In this document: piece by piece, positions 34,809 through 49,391 of the stretch
Numbering within the stretch: position 1 is the first letter of the stretch
Layout: each line of letters opens with the position of its first letter
NCBI GenBank assembly: GCA_029973955.1
Contig: JARKQJ010000205.1
Location: forward strand, 1-64,000
Source of the DNA: Paludibaculum sp.
Lineage (GTDB): Bacteria > Acidobacteriota > Terriglobia > Bryobacterales > Bryobacteraceae
Length of the DNA stretch: 64,000 nucleotides
Direction of reading: 5' to 3'
The notes under the pieces: model-generated
What the model was told of the DNA's origin: nothing
The model's database searches: none
Seen by the model: the letters and a program-made list of their open reading frames with translations, nothing else
Position numbers and translations under genes: made by a program

Positions 34809-35030
34809 TTAGTGCTTGCGGGGGCGGAACTTGAGGCAGTAGAAGATTCCGAGGGCGAGCAGGATGATGCCGCCCCACAGGCCGGCGCGCAACTCCGCAA
34901 GGACGATGTGCTGGGCGGCGGGGTGGCCGTGATAGTAGAGGTCCGCGCCGACGATCAACACGCCGTAGATGGTGAGCAGACTCCCGATGAAGAACCAGAT
35001 GGAGATGCCTTCCTGATCGTGTTCGTGCAT
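34809..35030 (-). CDS. Small membrane protein (73 aa)
   Basis: The protein MHEHDQEGISIWFFIGSLLT... has two hydrophobic helices separated by a polar His-rich loop (YYHGHPAAQH) and a basic end (KFRPRKH). I prefer ATG 35030; an 18-residue upstream extension (Pro/Arg-rich) looks non-coding. No family is recognised. It converges with the aldo/keto reductase, 12 bp away. Confidence 0.75.
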   Translation of the reverse strand: MHEHDQEGISIWFFIGSLLTIYGVLIVGADLYYHGHPAAQHIVLAELRAGLWGGIILLALGIFYCLKFRPRKH

Positions 35031-35157
35031 GGTGTGGGCCCTGGTGGAAGGACCAATGTATACCCTGGGTGGGGGCGTGGGCAAGGGGAGGCTGGGGGGT
35101 AAGGAGAGGGGGAGACGGCGAATCGTATTAAAAAACAGTCAGTTCAGAAAAAAAGGA

Positions 35158-35188
35158 TTGACGAGTATCGGGTCTGAAATGCAATAAT
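35158..35188 (+). promoter_or_regulatory. Possible promoter of the structured RNA region
   Basis: TTGACG (35158-35163) and an extended -10-like TG-c-AATAAT (35180-35188) are 19 bp apart. The predicted start falls near 35195, just before hairpin A1 at 35199. The spacing is long, so confidence is limited. Confidence 0.45.
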
Positions 35189-35198
35189 GGGATCAACA

Positions 35199-35490
35199 TA
35201 AGTCGTCATCGACTTAATTGCATCCCCGCGAGGAGGCCCAGCTCCTCGCAAGCCCCTCTGACAGAGGCCGTGCGGTCCCCAGCCACACGGCCTCTACGCC
35301 TGTAGGGCACCCTCCTCCTTCGATTCTCCTCCTCCAAACCGAAGGCTGGAGGTGTATCTACGCTATTCGCACCGGTAAGTGCGAAACTTCACCCAGATGG
35401 TCATTTGATAGCTGGATTCTCACCCACCCTGGGCAGGTGGTAGGGGTGACGGATGTTGCTAAGTGATTGAATCTGGGTGAAGGGGAGTTT
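35199..35490 (+). ncRNA. Structured RNA element, unit A plus central long helix
   Basis: The stretch has perfect or near-perfect stems in series: A1 TAAGTCG (35199-35205)/CGACTTA (35210-35216). A2 GCGAGGAG (35228-35235)/CTCCTCGC (35242-35249) with loop GCCCAG. A3 AGAGGCCGTG (35263-35272)/CACGGCCTCT (35286-35295). Hairpin E TTCGCAC (35366-35372)/GTGCGAA (35379-35385). A 12-bp helix D CTTCACCCAGAT (35387-35398)/ATCTGGGTGAAG (35471-35482) enclosing TCACCC/GGGTGA. The strand assignment rests on the promoter-like sequence at 35158 and is uncertain. No known family is recognised. Confidence 0.7.
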
Positions 35491-35521
35491 GGTACGCCAA
35501 CTGCACTAAGAAAGACAACAC

Positions 35522-35625
35522 GAGTCGTTCCCAAAACGACTCCTACATACCTCGAGGTGACCCAGCACCTCGTGAAGCCCCTCTAAATGAAGGCTCTGCG
35601 GCTCCCCGCCACAGGGCCTTCCCTC
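35522..35625 (+). ncRNA. Structured RNA element, unit B (second copy of the unit A fold)
   Basis: B1 GAGTCGTT (35522-35529)/AACGACTC (35535-35542). B2 CGAGGTG (35553-35559)/CACCTCG (35566-35572) with loop ACCCAG. The shared string AAGCCCCTCT follows, then B3 GAAGGCTCTG (35589-35598)/CAGGGCCTTC (35612-35621), closing around GGC-TCCCC-GCC. Order, spacing, the CCCAG loop and the TCCCC loop match unit A, while the stems differ in sequence but keep pairing. That is the mark of a conserved RNA fold rather than a simple DNA repeat. Confidence 0.7.
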
Positions 35626-35702
35626 CATTTGGGGGGTGAGGGTGAGTTTCTTGACGTGCTTCAGCGCCAGATGCCGGTGGAGAGGTTTGTTCCCACGCGG
35701 AA

Positions 35703-35805
35703 AAGCCCCGCGTGCGTGACGCGGGGCTTCGCTAGTGGCTTACCGCCACAGGGCCTTCCCTCGAACTGCCCGGTTTCCCGGGGCATCCCCTCTTTTGACA
35801 GAGGC
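35703..35805. repeat. Unit C: partial, rearranged third copy with a terminator-like stem
   Basis: It starts with an 11-bp perfect stem AAGCCCCGCGT (35703-35713)/ACGCGGGGCTT (35719-35729). Then GTGGC-TTACC-GCCAC (35735-35749) and a 20-nt run at 35743-35762 identical to unit B 35606-35625. CCTCT (35789-35793)/AGAGG (35800-35804) as in unit A follows. The U-tract (TTTT) lies on the minus-strand side of the first stem, so direction is ambiguous. Confidence 0.55.
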
Positions 35806-35894
35806 AAATCCTACTATCCAGTGGTGGAGCGCATCTGTAAGGCTCCGTTTTCTGTTTGACGCTACACTGGTCGGTTTGGAGGCAGGAATTTTTG

Positions 35895-36788
35895 ATGAAG
35901 ATTTTCGTGACGGGAGCCGGGGGCTACATCGGGCGGGCGGTATGTGATTATTTGAGGCAGGATCGGCAAGAAGTACTGGCGCTGGCGCACTCGGAAATGA
36001 GCGCGCAGTTGATGGAAATGAAGGGTTTCGGGGTGGTACGCGGGGCGTTGAAGGATGCGGAGCTACTGCGGAGCGCCGCGCAGGCCTGCGATGGGGTGAT
36101 TCATGCGGCGCGGACCGCGGGGCCGATGTCGGGTGCGGAAGACCGGGCGGCCGTGGAGGTTCTGTTGGGGGCGCTGGAGGGTTCGGGGAAGCCGCTGGTG
36201 TATTCGAGCGGAGTTTGGGTGATGGGGGATACGCGGGGGCGTCTGCTGGGGGAGGTGAGCGGGTTGAACCCGCCGCCGATGGTGGCCTGGCGTCCGGCGG
36301 TGGAGGAGTTGGTGCTGGATGCGGCGGCGCGAGGGATTCGCACGATGGTGCTGAGGCCGGGTACGGTGTTCGGGCGGAAGGGCGGACGGGTGGCGGAGAT
36401 GTTCGAGCAGGCGCGCCGGGATGGGGTGGTGCGGATTGTGGGGGATGGGAAGAACTGCTGGTCGATGGTGCATGTGGATGATCTGGCGGACCTGTACTGC
36501 CGGGCGGTGGCTGAACCGGTGGGCGGAGAGGTGTTTCTCGCGTGCGGCGGGATGCCGCAACCTGTGGGGGAGATTGCGCGGGCCGTGGCGGCGGCTTGCG
36601 GGATTGGTGAGAAGAAGGTGGAGTGCATCCCGGTGGAAGAGGCTCGGGCGCAGATGGGGCCACTGGCGGACTGCCTGGCGATGGATTGCCGGGCGGGATC
36701 GACCAAGGCGGCGCGGTACTTCGGCTGGACCGTGCGGCGGCCATCGGTCTATGACGAGATCTTCCGCGGATCCTATTTGGAGGACTGA
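35895..36788 (+). CDS. Extended SDR-family NAD(P)-dependent epimerase/reductase
   Basis: The 297-aa protein has the Rossmann G-x-x-G-x-x-G in KIFVTGAGGYIGRAV, the VIHAARTAGPM strand-4 region and a sugar-epimerase-like fold (LRPGTVFGRKGG, WSMVHVDDLADLY). The expected Y-x3-K catalytic pair is not obvious near YSSGVWVMGDT, so catalytic activity may be altered. Substrates of such atypical SDRs are varied. GGAGG lies 12 nt before ATG 35895. It follows the structured region directly, and the PepSY-like pair is 18 bp downstream. Confidence 0.85.
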   Translation: MKIFVTGAGGYIGRAVCDYLRQDRQEVLALAHSEMSAQLMEMKGFGVVRGALKDAELLRSAAQACDGVIHAARTAGPMSGAEDRAAVEVLLGALEGSGKPLVYSSGVWVMGDTRGRLLGEVSGLNPPPMVAWRPAVEELVLDAAARGIRTMVLRPGTVFGRKGGRVAEMFEQARRDGVVRIVGDGKNCWSMVHVDDLADLYCRAVAEPVGGEVFLACGGMPQPVGEIARAVAAACGIGEKKVECIPVEEARAQMGPLADCLAMDCRAGSTKAARYFGWTVRRPSVYDEIFRGSYLED

Positions 36789-48133: not shown

Positions 48134-49391
48134 GATCAAACTCCTTGATAGCGCCGAGCATCGCCACGATGTTCTCCACGGGCGTGCCGGCCTGGATGTT
48201 GTGAACTGTATTGAATACGAACCCTCCGCCCGGGGCGAAAACCTCACAACGGCGCAAAACCTGCTCTCTGACTTCGGAGGGCGTTCCGAATGGCAGGGTC
48301 TGCTGCGTATCCACTCCGCCGCCCCAGAAGACGAGGCGATCCCCGTAGTGGGCCTTGAGGGTTTCCGGCTCCATGCCGACGGCCGAGCACTGCACGGGGT
48401 TGATGATGTCGAAGCCGGCTTCAAGGAACGATTCAAAGAAGCGCTCGACGGAGCCGCAGGAGTGCTTGAAGCACTTCCAGCTTGTGTTGGAGTGAATCCA
48501 GCCGCAGAGGGATTTGTAATAAGGCAGCCAAAGTTCGCGGAATGTGGCGACGGAGCAGAAGGCGGAGGTCTGCGTACCGAAGTCCGTGCCGCAGAGGTAG
48601 ACGACATCGACGTCATTGCCGACGGCGGCATAGATGCGCCGCAGGTTGCCAATGGCCACTTCGCACTGCTTCTCGAAGATGGCGTGGATGTAAGGCCTGC
48701 GTGCTCGAATGGAGACGTACCACTCTGTGATGTCGCGAATGCCGCGGGGGTCCTTGAGACCGACGGCCGGGACGGCGGCGATGTCGCCAAATCCTGTGCC
48801 GCCGAAGCTGGCGATGACGGCCTTGCCTTTGGCGCGGGCGTGCTTCACGGATTCGGCGATGGACGCGATGTCCACATCGGACAGGGCCTGGAACTCTTCG
48901 AGATTGTCCTCGGGGTTGAGGTTGTCGGGGTCGAAGTGGTTCTGCCGGACGATGGCGTCGAAGAAGTAGCCGCCGCTGGGCATGCGGCCGGAGGGGGCGG
49001 CGGTGAGGTCGCCCTGCGGGTACATCAGGGTGTCGCCGCCGGCATCCCTGGTGACGTTGAAGTTGCCCGGGACGAGCACTTCCTGGCCATTGAAATCCCA
49101 GGGCTTCCAGTTGTCGAAGGTGAAGCCGAAGTGGGCCTTGCGGCGGGGCATGCCCTCGACGTCGACGCCGAGCGCTTCGGCGAGATCGTCCTCCACGAGG
49201 CCGAGCATCTGCATCGGCTCGTGGATCTTCACGGGGCGCTGCTCCAGGCCGTAGTGCCGGCGGAGTTTGGCGACCACGGAGGCATGGATTCCGGTGACTG
49301 AGGTGGCGCCGAGGTCCAGTGGGATCCGGTCGGGTTGTCGGTGCGACAGAGCGTCGAGGACGCGCTGCCGGCGGGGCTCATCCATTGTCAT
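48126..49391 (-). CDS. UroD-superfamily methyltransferase, divergent (421 aa)
   Basis: The protein has the UroD-type fold (VLDALSHRQPDRIPLDLGA near the N-terminus, YLCGTDFGTQT, a late FKHSCGS). The His-x-Cys zinc pair is in KHSC, but the third ligand position reads FNTVHNIQAGTP, with His where the MtaA-like neighbour has Cys. It is longer than the neighbour by 80 residues. As first gene of the operon it is the best candidate for the substrate-specific methyltransferase. I took ATG 49391; TTG 49403 and ATG 49385 are alternatives with no clear Shine-Dalgarno to choose among them. Confidence 0.87.
   Translation of the reverse strand: MTMDEPRRQRVLDALSHRQPDRIPLDLGATSVTGIHASVVAKLRRHYGLEQRPVKIHEPMQMLGLVEDDLAEALGVDVEGMPRRKAHFGFTFDNWKPWDFNGQEVLVPGNFNVTRDAGGDTLMYPQGDLTAAPSGRMPSGGYFFDAIVRQNHFDPDNLNPEDNLEEFQALSDVDIASIAESVKHARAKGKAVIASFGGTGFGDIAAVPAVGLKDPRGIRDITEWYVSIRARRPYIHAIFEKQCEVAIGNLRRIYAAVGNDVDVVYLCGTDFGTQTSAFCSVATFRELWLPYYKSLCGWIHSNTSWKCFKHSCGSVERFFESFLEAGFDIINPVQCSAVGMEPETLKAHYGDRLVFWGGGVDTQQTLPFGTPSEVREQVLRRCEVFAPGGGFVFNTVHNIQAGTPVENIVAMLGAIKEFDHA

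Follow-up and report, generated by a model that had tools for sequence, protein, structure and literature searches.

Several described groups of bacterial small RNAs bear on the locus analysed here. Qrr, GlmY/GlmZ, and CrcZ/CrcY are sigma-54-dependent sibling small RNAs of Gammaproteobacteria that are controlled by activators and act in trans; alpha-r14/cuckoo RNAs of Rhizobiales, RsaE of staphylococci, and RepG of Helicobacter have unpaired, C-rich seeds that can base-pair with ribosome-binding sites; and the protein sponges include CsrB/RsmY, which titrate CsrA and display repeated GGA in the hairpin loops of the transcripts, and CrcZ, which titrates Hfq/Crc. Acidobacteriota, the phylum of the present host, are abundant in soils. 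The table of a 2022 review gave only four distinct annotated small RNAs for this phylum (PMC9029176). Solibacter-1, Acido-1, and Acido-Lenti-1 were put forward as candidate structured RNAs of Acidobacteriota, Solibacter-1 being listed in Table 1 of that paper only for Solibacter usitatus, with a '?' for being RNA and with no Rfam number (PMC2864571). Pxr of Myxococcus xanthus, as described in the portions of the sources used here, has a 108-nt coding region, three predicted stem-loops, and a predicted sigma-54 promoter (PMC5568312, PMC5684412, PMC11928866); in the corresponding portions of two of these sources, Cystobacter carries tandem pxr paralogues, each with its own sigma-54 promoter, and pxr adjoins an NtrC-like regulator gene, nla19/pxrR (PMC5568312, PMC5684412).

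The window, i.e., the whole 64,000-nt stretch of Paludibaculum DNA that was analysed, contained two candidate small-RNA units on the plus strand: unit A (35199–35297; 105.2 bits and E 6.2e-21 with covariance model R2) and unit B (35521–35623; 66.2 bits and E 1.4e-12 with R2), both of which belonged to the set from which R2 was built. The first-pass annotation had proposed two units with a common plan at this place, and the proposed order of hairpin 1, hairpin 2 with an xCCCAG loop, the string AAGCCCCTCT, and hairpin 3 was recovered in both: (i) unit A was composed of hairpin 1 (35199–35216, loop TCAT), the single strand GCATCCCC (35220–35227), hairpin 2 (35228–35249, loop GCCCAG), the linker AAGCCCCTCTGAC (35250–35262, containing AAGCCCCTCT at 35250–35259), and hairpin 3 (35263–35295) and (ii) unit B was composed of hairpin 1 (35522–35542), hairpin 2 (35553–35572, loop ACCCAG), the linker string AAGCCCCTCT (35575–35584), and hairpin 3 (35589–35621). 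On the plus strand, the loops of the window units read UCAU (A) or CCCAA (B), (G/A)CCCAG, and UCCCC type. The detail given for hairpin 3 was corrected in three respects: hairpin 3 of B contained one U-G pair; the stem of hairpin 3 continued, in A as in B, with extra pairs beyond an internal mismatch; and the TCCCC loop was exact in B, whereas that of A read TCCCCAG if no closing U-G pair is assumed. The plus-strand fold of A (35195–35300) had −48.3 kcal/mol and z −6.8, and that of B (35517–35640) had −58.3 kcal/mol and z −6.0, another value for B being z −6.9; 0/200 shuffles equalled either fold, and the minus-strand folds were weaker (A: z −3.9, 0/200 shuffles equal; B: z −2.5, 7/200). The A-unit matches in five other members of the genus had 93–96% identity.

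Past unit B, the region 35699–35762, which had no plus-strand match to the covariance model, contained a further hairpin, AAGCCCCGCGT/ACGCGGGGCTT, and a 26-nt stretch (35737–35762) that shared 92% identity with the 3′ portion of B hairpin 3 and was perhaps the remnant of a third unit. A weak model match on the minus strand at 49089–49172 (17.7 bits, E 0.034) was probably due to chance.

Sequence comparison across relatives bore out the proposal that the fold is under selection, homologues with covariation being found in dozens of related genomes. The genus alignment (MAFFT, unfitted) comprised 15 units (11 distinct) from eight genomes, and it displayed both-side changes in 28 cells versus a shuffled mean of 9.5, with 0/500 shuffles as high; the count of both-side-changed pairs (7) was matched by 93/500 shuffles, and that of further pair types (13) by 499/500. 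The wide set of 103 distinct rows, whose alignment was fitted to the structure model and took in one false match (L018:1097-1186, minus strand), had (i) both-side changes in 496 cells versus a shuffled mean of 110 (0/500 shuffles), (ii) 28/28 pairs changed on both sides versus 20.2 shuffled (0/500), (iii) 89 further pair types versus 60.4 shuffled (0/500), and (iv) 94.5% of cells paired, dropping to 37–49% in slid versions; the false match, together with two sources (L103 and L104), was left out of the 112-unit set. When 48 diverse units were aligned with MAFFT without fitting, RNAalifold recovered hairpins 2 and 3, 13/14 pairs having a both-side change in one sequence or more, but it did not recover hairpin 1. 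Among 100 distinct units, 120 G-U cells were counted versus 30 A-C cells, and TTTT was found within 14 nt after hairpin 3 in 42/111 units versus 2/111 at the control position; the G-U excess and the TTTT thus pointed to the plus strand as the RNA. Within the window, neither A nor B had a clear T-run behind hairpin 3, and a terminator scan reported none on the plus strand, its sole match being B hairpin 1 read on the minus strand.

The locus was detected by DNA search in eight of nine genomes of the genus, the window's own genome included, and the ninth (G003) had only a weak model match (E 0.0017). Both units were adjacent in 7/8 of the genus genomes with the locus; in G002, B alone was complete because contig ends broke the locus, and extra A-like starts were apparently present. 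At E ≤ 0.01, covariance model R1 (15 units) matched 64/200 Bryobacteraceae genomes, and R2 (112 units) matched 97/200 (44/76 genera). When R2 was applied to all 237 Bryobacteraceae genomes at E ≤ 1e-4, 87 matched (39/76 genera), which supplied the covarying homologues in acidobacterial genomes that a covariance-model check had been proposed to find; stricter filters were used in the large model searches, and weak matches were lost. With 150/237 genomes giving no match at E ≤ 1e-4, the RNA family appears to be common rather than universal, or it may be too divergent in some genera. The 30 sources outside the R2 building set gave 45 matches, two or three units being present in 13/30, and the deeper R2 matches were believable because many came in tandem. 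Tandem units were seen at 21/88 loci, and, of the 62 genomes that contributed retrieved units to the 112-unit set, 41 had at least two units and 50 had at least one sigma-54 unit (see below); the 6.5-Mb own genome had two copies only.

A phylum-wide draw gave matches in 4/396 genomes (the own genome plus three weak matches in one other genus), and at least two further own-family genomes among the 396 were without a match. Two of the three weak phylum matches, judged by eye, looked like artefacts: L112 resembled an ordinary terminator hairpin at the end of a gene, and L113 resembled coding sequence. A contig scan with a pattern that fitted 55/112 units, and hence missed about half, detected 51 stretches and gave no match in viral contigs; nearly all of the 51 came from MAGs named Bryobacteraceae, Bryobacterales, Solibacter(aceae), or Acidobacteria, 24 of the 27 stretches scored with the model matched it, and 5/51 were labelled as other groups. 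L156, L159, and L175, with other-group labels, had no model match and looked like chance; L141 (DYJN01000113.1, 'Arcobacter sp.') and L177 (JAJFUV010000122.1, 'Acidobacteriales') were true members (97–99 bits), the labels of which were probably wrong.

The two window units had promoters of different classes, a feature absent from the first-pass annotation, and both classes recurred across the family. The sigma-70-like promoter of unit A (35158–35188, plus strand), read from the sequence and conserved in the genus alignment, was composed of TTGACG (35158–35163), a 19-nt spacer containing GGTCTGAAATGC (35171–35182), and AATAAT (35183–35188), with an expected transcription start near 35195; it was not reported by the automated promoter scan because its 19-nt spacer lay outside the 16–18 range. 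The sigma-54 promoter of unit B was TTTGGTACGCCAACTGCA (35488–35505, plus strand), having GG at 35491–35492, N10, and GC at 35503–35504, with an expected transcription start near 35516. Across the family, a sigma-54 element (GG-N10-GC, with at least 8/12 consensus letters) was found 12–24 nt before the unit in 67/110 upstreams, versus 0–2 at eleven control offsets and a shuffled mean of 0.7, and the sigma-54-aligned consensus was about TTTGGCACG....TGCA. Among 39 additional upstreams from outside the 110 set, most of them belonging to divergent units, five had a sigma-54 element (at an offset of 10–26) versus one in the control, and the divergent clade was nearly all of sigma-70 type. All upstreams pooled (155, distinct by exact letters only) fell into 75 of sigma-54 type and 80 without a sigma-54 site. 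Two patterns, both written after the sequences were inspected, were distributed unequally over these groups: (i) a −35-like element with the spacer motif (R)G(D)(Y)C(Y) after it in 40/80 non-sigma-54 and 0/75 sigma-54 upstreams (shuffled mean 0.6) and (ii) the proximal motif TAAGnnnTTGA in 23/75 sigma-54 and 0/80 other upstreams. Judged from these upstreams, a promoter appears to precede hairpin 1 at a near-fixed distance.

An enhancer-like palindromic site, AGTGCGAAACTTCACCCA (35378–35395), was located 125 nt before unit B. The palindrome, first noticed as enriched dyads and then fitted, had a consensus of about TGGGNGAAATTTCNCCCA (also written as TGGGTGAAATTTCACCCA); a score of at least 6 was reached by 52/57 non-redundant sigma-54 upstreams versus 2/39 of the other class, and the best site lay 70–140 nt upstream in 53/57 non-redundant sigma-54 upstreams. 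Because the motif had been trained on the scored set, it was retrained on shuffled copies, and in 30 such trainings a score of at least 6 was reached by a mean of 16.5 and at most 23/57 upstreams, and best sites at 70–140 nt averaged 19 and never exceeded 29 (of 57). A model trained on the other class scored at least 6 in 28/39 of its own members, with only 6/39 at 70–140 nt; residual relatedness thus inflates the scores, and position is the stronger evidence. The palindrome was also present in 4/5 sigma-54 units outside the training set. Strict sigma-54 sites elsewhere in the own genome numbered seven versus one in the control, and none of these seven had a strong palindrome (best score 4.8). 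The marks of a sigma-54-dependent small RNA, namely a −24/−12 element at a near-fixed distance and an enhancer-like site upstream, were thereby apparent in the sequence, and the family, its fold, its strand, its promoter classes, and the enhancer-like site are likewise supported at this level.

Two further observations concerned these upstream regions. A 12-bp perfect inverted repeat, CTTCACCCAGAT/ATCTGGGTGAAG (35387–35482), lay between the enhancer-like site and the B sigma-54 promoter; it overlapped the enhancer-like site, and its CACCCA/TGGGTG halves resembled the enhancer motif. Another sigma-54 site of the own genome, L206 (G000:C82:48106-48122, minus strand), was preceded by a GTAAGTCGTTGATT element, which also precedes sigma-54 units of the RNA family; the only ORF of at least 70 aa starting within 400 nt of L206 was a mechanical ORF of 82 aa.

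The conserved unpaired strings of the family were GCATCC(CC), the loop (A/G)CCCAG, the linker AGCCCCTCTGA, and the TCCCCA loop; a divergent subfamily had TCCCCTCCC in hairpin 2 instead. CCCTCT was present in 129/157 units, and CCCCTCC, which is anti-Shine-Dalgarno-like, in 36/157. On balance, A and B are best read as sibling trans-acting small RNAs with two promoter types and with C-rich segments that pair with Shine-Dalgarno regions, a reading that we hold to be reasonably likely. A and B would be two sibling small-RNA genes of about 100 nt, each with its own promoter: (i) A would be transcribed by housekeeping-type polymerase from a promoter whose spacer bears a conserved motif and (ii) B would be transcribed by sigma-54 polymerase, turned on by a putative activator bound to the palindrome some 120 nt before the unit. 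Each transcript would pass through three hairpins and stop after hairpin 3, and the fold would keep C-rich segments open (GCAUCCCC, a CCCAG or CCCCUCC loop, AGCCCCUCUGA, and a UCCCC loop); the most likely partners of these segments are the G-rich Shine-Dalgarno regions of mRNAs, and this pairing, in which Hfq probably takes part, would lower translation, and the two promoter classes would let two signals feed one target set. Inferred from the sequence are transcription itself and its precise ends, an activator, binding to Hfq, the targets, and whether regulation is negative or positive. The own genome had one rpoN, and it had two Hfq-like genes over the cut-off plus one further match below it. 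About half of the copies examined lay behind a sigma-54 switch, and the RNAs thus probably adjust protein output when some signal is received. In a wider form that we regard as tentative, rather less than evenly probable, the family would be a Bryobacteraceae-wide riboregulator in which sigma-54/activator siblings and sigma-70-spacer-operator siblings bring two environmental signals to bear on a shared set of ribosome-binding sites, i.e., a global translational switch.

Complements of the open segments were counted in the own genome. The exact linker complement AGAGGGGCTT was not enriched there, with 22 sites (two of which were the units themselves) versus 23 for the reversed control; a mechanical ORF start (at least 80 aa) lay within 40 nt at six of the 22 loci (L190, L193, L196, L197, L200, and L201), and the sole convincing one, L196 (a 499-aa ORF with its ATG 3 nt behind the match), was not beyond chance. 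GCTGGGCYTCC, the complement of loop 2 and part of its stem, had 44 sites (unit A among them) versus 11 for the reversed control, an excess that may reflect targets or only codon usage. At L186–L188 (G000:C33:346-3541), a block GGAGAGGGGCTTCAGGCGGCCGTT...CTCTCCAC that recurs in the own genome was observed, two copies being about 141 nt apart. In view of the negative exact linker-complement test and of the loop-2 excess, which may have either meaning, the full mechanism was held to be no more than reasonably likely and a protein sponge was placed second. As a sponge, the RNA would titrate an RNA-binding protein through its C-rich single-stranded motifs, mRNA pairing not being needed; the repetition of such motifs in loops and linkers, the frequent presence of at least two copies per genome (41/62 genomes with fetched units), a sigma-54 control as in CrcZ, and the finding that exact mRNA complements to the linker were not enriched all agreed with this. 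However, the single-stranded motifs were long specific strings (AGCCCCTCTGA and GCATCC) and not one short repeated motif, and no GGA-type CsrA motif was seen by eye in the plus-strand loops of the window units, so that a sponge is regarded as rather unlikely next to the pairing of sibling small RNAs with mRNAs.

The region 35195–35625 was flanked by a 91-aa ORF (34809–35084, minus strand; no Pfam match) and a NAD-dependent epimerase gene (35895–36788); the window neighbours tested were an aldo/keto reductase, the 91-aa ORF, the epimerase, a PepSY-TM protein, and a U32 peptidase, and no tRNA/tmRNA was found in the window. The conserved epimerase gene lay downstream of the units in the genus and likewise in L048, which belongs to another genus, as would be expected if the units acted in cis, as leaders or attenuators, on that gene. 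An adenylate-kinase-like gene was located just upstream of the units at 11 loci and the other loci differed, the neighbours outside the window having been clustered and named from their translations; gene neighbours thus vary between genera, and the units are not the leader of one gene. A T-run tended to follow hairpin 3 across the family, and tandem copies had their own promoters, both of which likewise speak against leaders, a reading that we consider improbable; the units look like free-standing RNA genes. Dispersed non-coding repeats of REP/MITE type, moved by a transposase and not functioning as RNAs, would account for multi-copy hairpins that are in tandem at 21/88 loci and for the partial copy at 35737–35762, but the presence of only two copies in the 6.5-Mb own genome, the recurrence of the RNA in 39 genera, the covariation, and the near-fixed promoter spacing have already made this reading disfavoured, with very little probability left to it. 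Some small RNAs do encode a short peptide, but indels occurred in unit loops and linkers while the pairs covaried and no conserved start codon was seen by eye in the aligned units, and a peptide-coding or dual-function RNA is given equally little probability.

With the sibling small RNAs, a sizeable family is added whose fold, strand, and promoters are clear and for which there is a candidate enhancer site, and thus the regulator and the targets are now directly searchable. The sigma-70/sigma-54 split of related copies makes a good case for the wiring of two signals into one small-RNA output. If true, the global translational switch would be of a kind not met, among the matches listed, in those parts of the literature surveyed for soil bacteria of this phylum.

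With respect to known families, the first-pass annotation had named none for this RNA, and no convincing Rfam match was obtained even at a relaxed threshold: (i) 4227 Rfam 15 families at the gathering cut-off gave only 23S and 5S rRNA in the window and (ii) a relaxed Rfam search gave six matches in 35100–35900 and four in two relatives, all far below the cut-off and scattered over families. The RNA family is apparently undescribed. Acido-1 (RF01686) and Acido-Lenti-1 (RF01687) gave no match in the Rfam searches of the present locus. Solibacter-1, compared by its Table 1 entry, could be an earlier, unexplained sighting of the present family; members of the latter do occur in L145, a MAG record under the name 'Candidatus Solibacter usitatus'. 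Except for the name Solibacter-1, no recognisable earlier description was met among the matches listed for literature on acidobacterial, Solibacter, or Bryobacteraceae small RNAs, and the main texts of two recent surveys contained none of the five acidobacterial names searched.

Compared to Qrr, GlmY/GlmZ, and CrcZ/CrcY, the present family is alike in its homologous copies, its sigma-54 and putative activator control, and its proposed trans action, but these RNAs have other folds and motifs, no Rfam match to them was found, and the present family includes some sigma-70 copies. With alpha-r14/cuckoo RNAs, RsaE, and RepG it shares C-rich unpaired seeds, pairing being predicted in the present family, but again the present family had no Rfam match. 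The closest working analogue is myxobacterial Pxr, to which there is no sequence similarity: the mean local alignment scores of 157 units equalled those of shuffled controls, and neither CCCAG nor GCCCCTCT was present, both comparisons covering positions 13–33 and 48–111 of the inferred pxr ancestor. In addition, the host phylum differs, and, in the portions of the Pxr sources used here, an NtrC-like regulator adjoins pxr, whereas none was found among the window neighbours tested. Identity as Pxr is thus not supported, but the present RNAs may work like Pxr, with which, as far as those portions describe it, they share (i) three stem-loops in about 100–110 nt, (ii) a sigma-54 promoter, found at unit B and in 75/155 upstreams but not at unit A, (iii) a C-run, which in Pxr falls within or close to the first stem-loop (a primer contains it as TTCCCCCC), and (iv) a tandem arrangement, as in the Cystobacter paralogues, each of which has a sigma-54 promoter.
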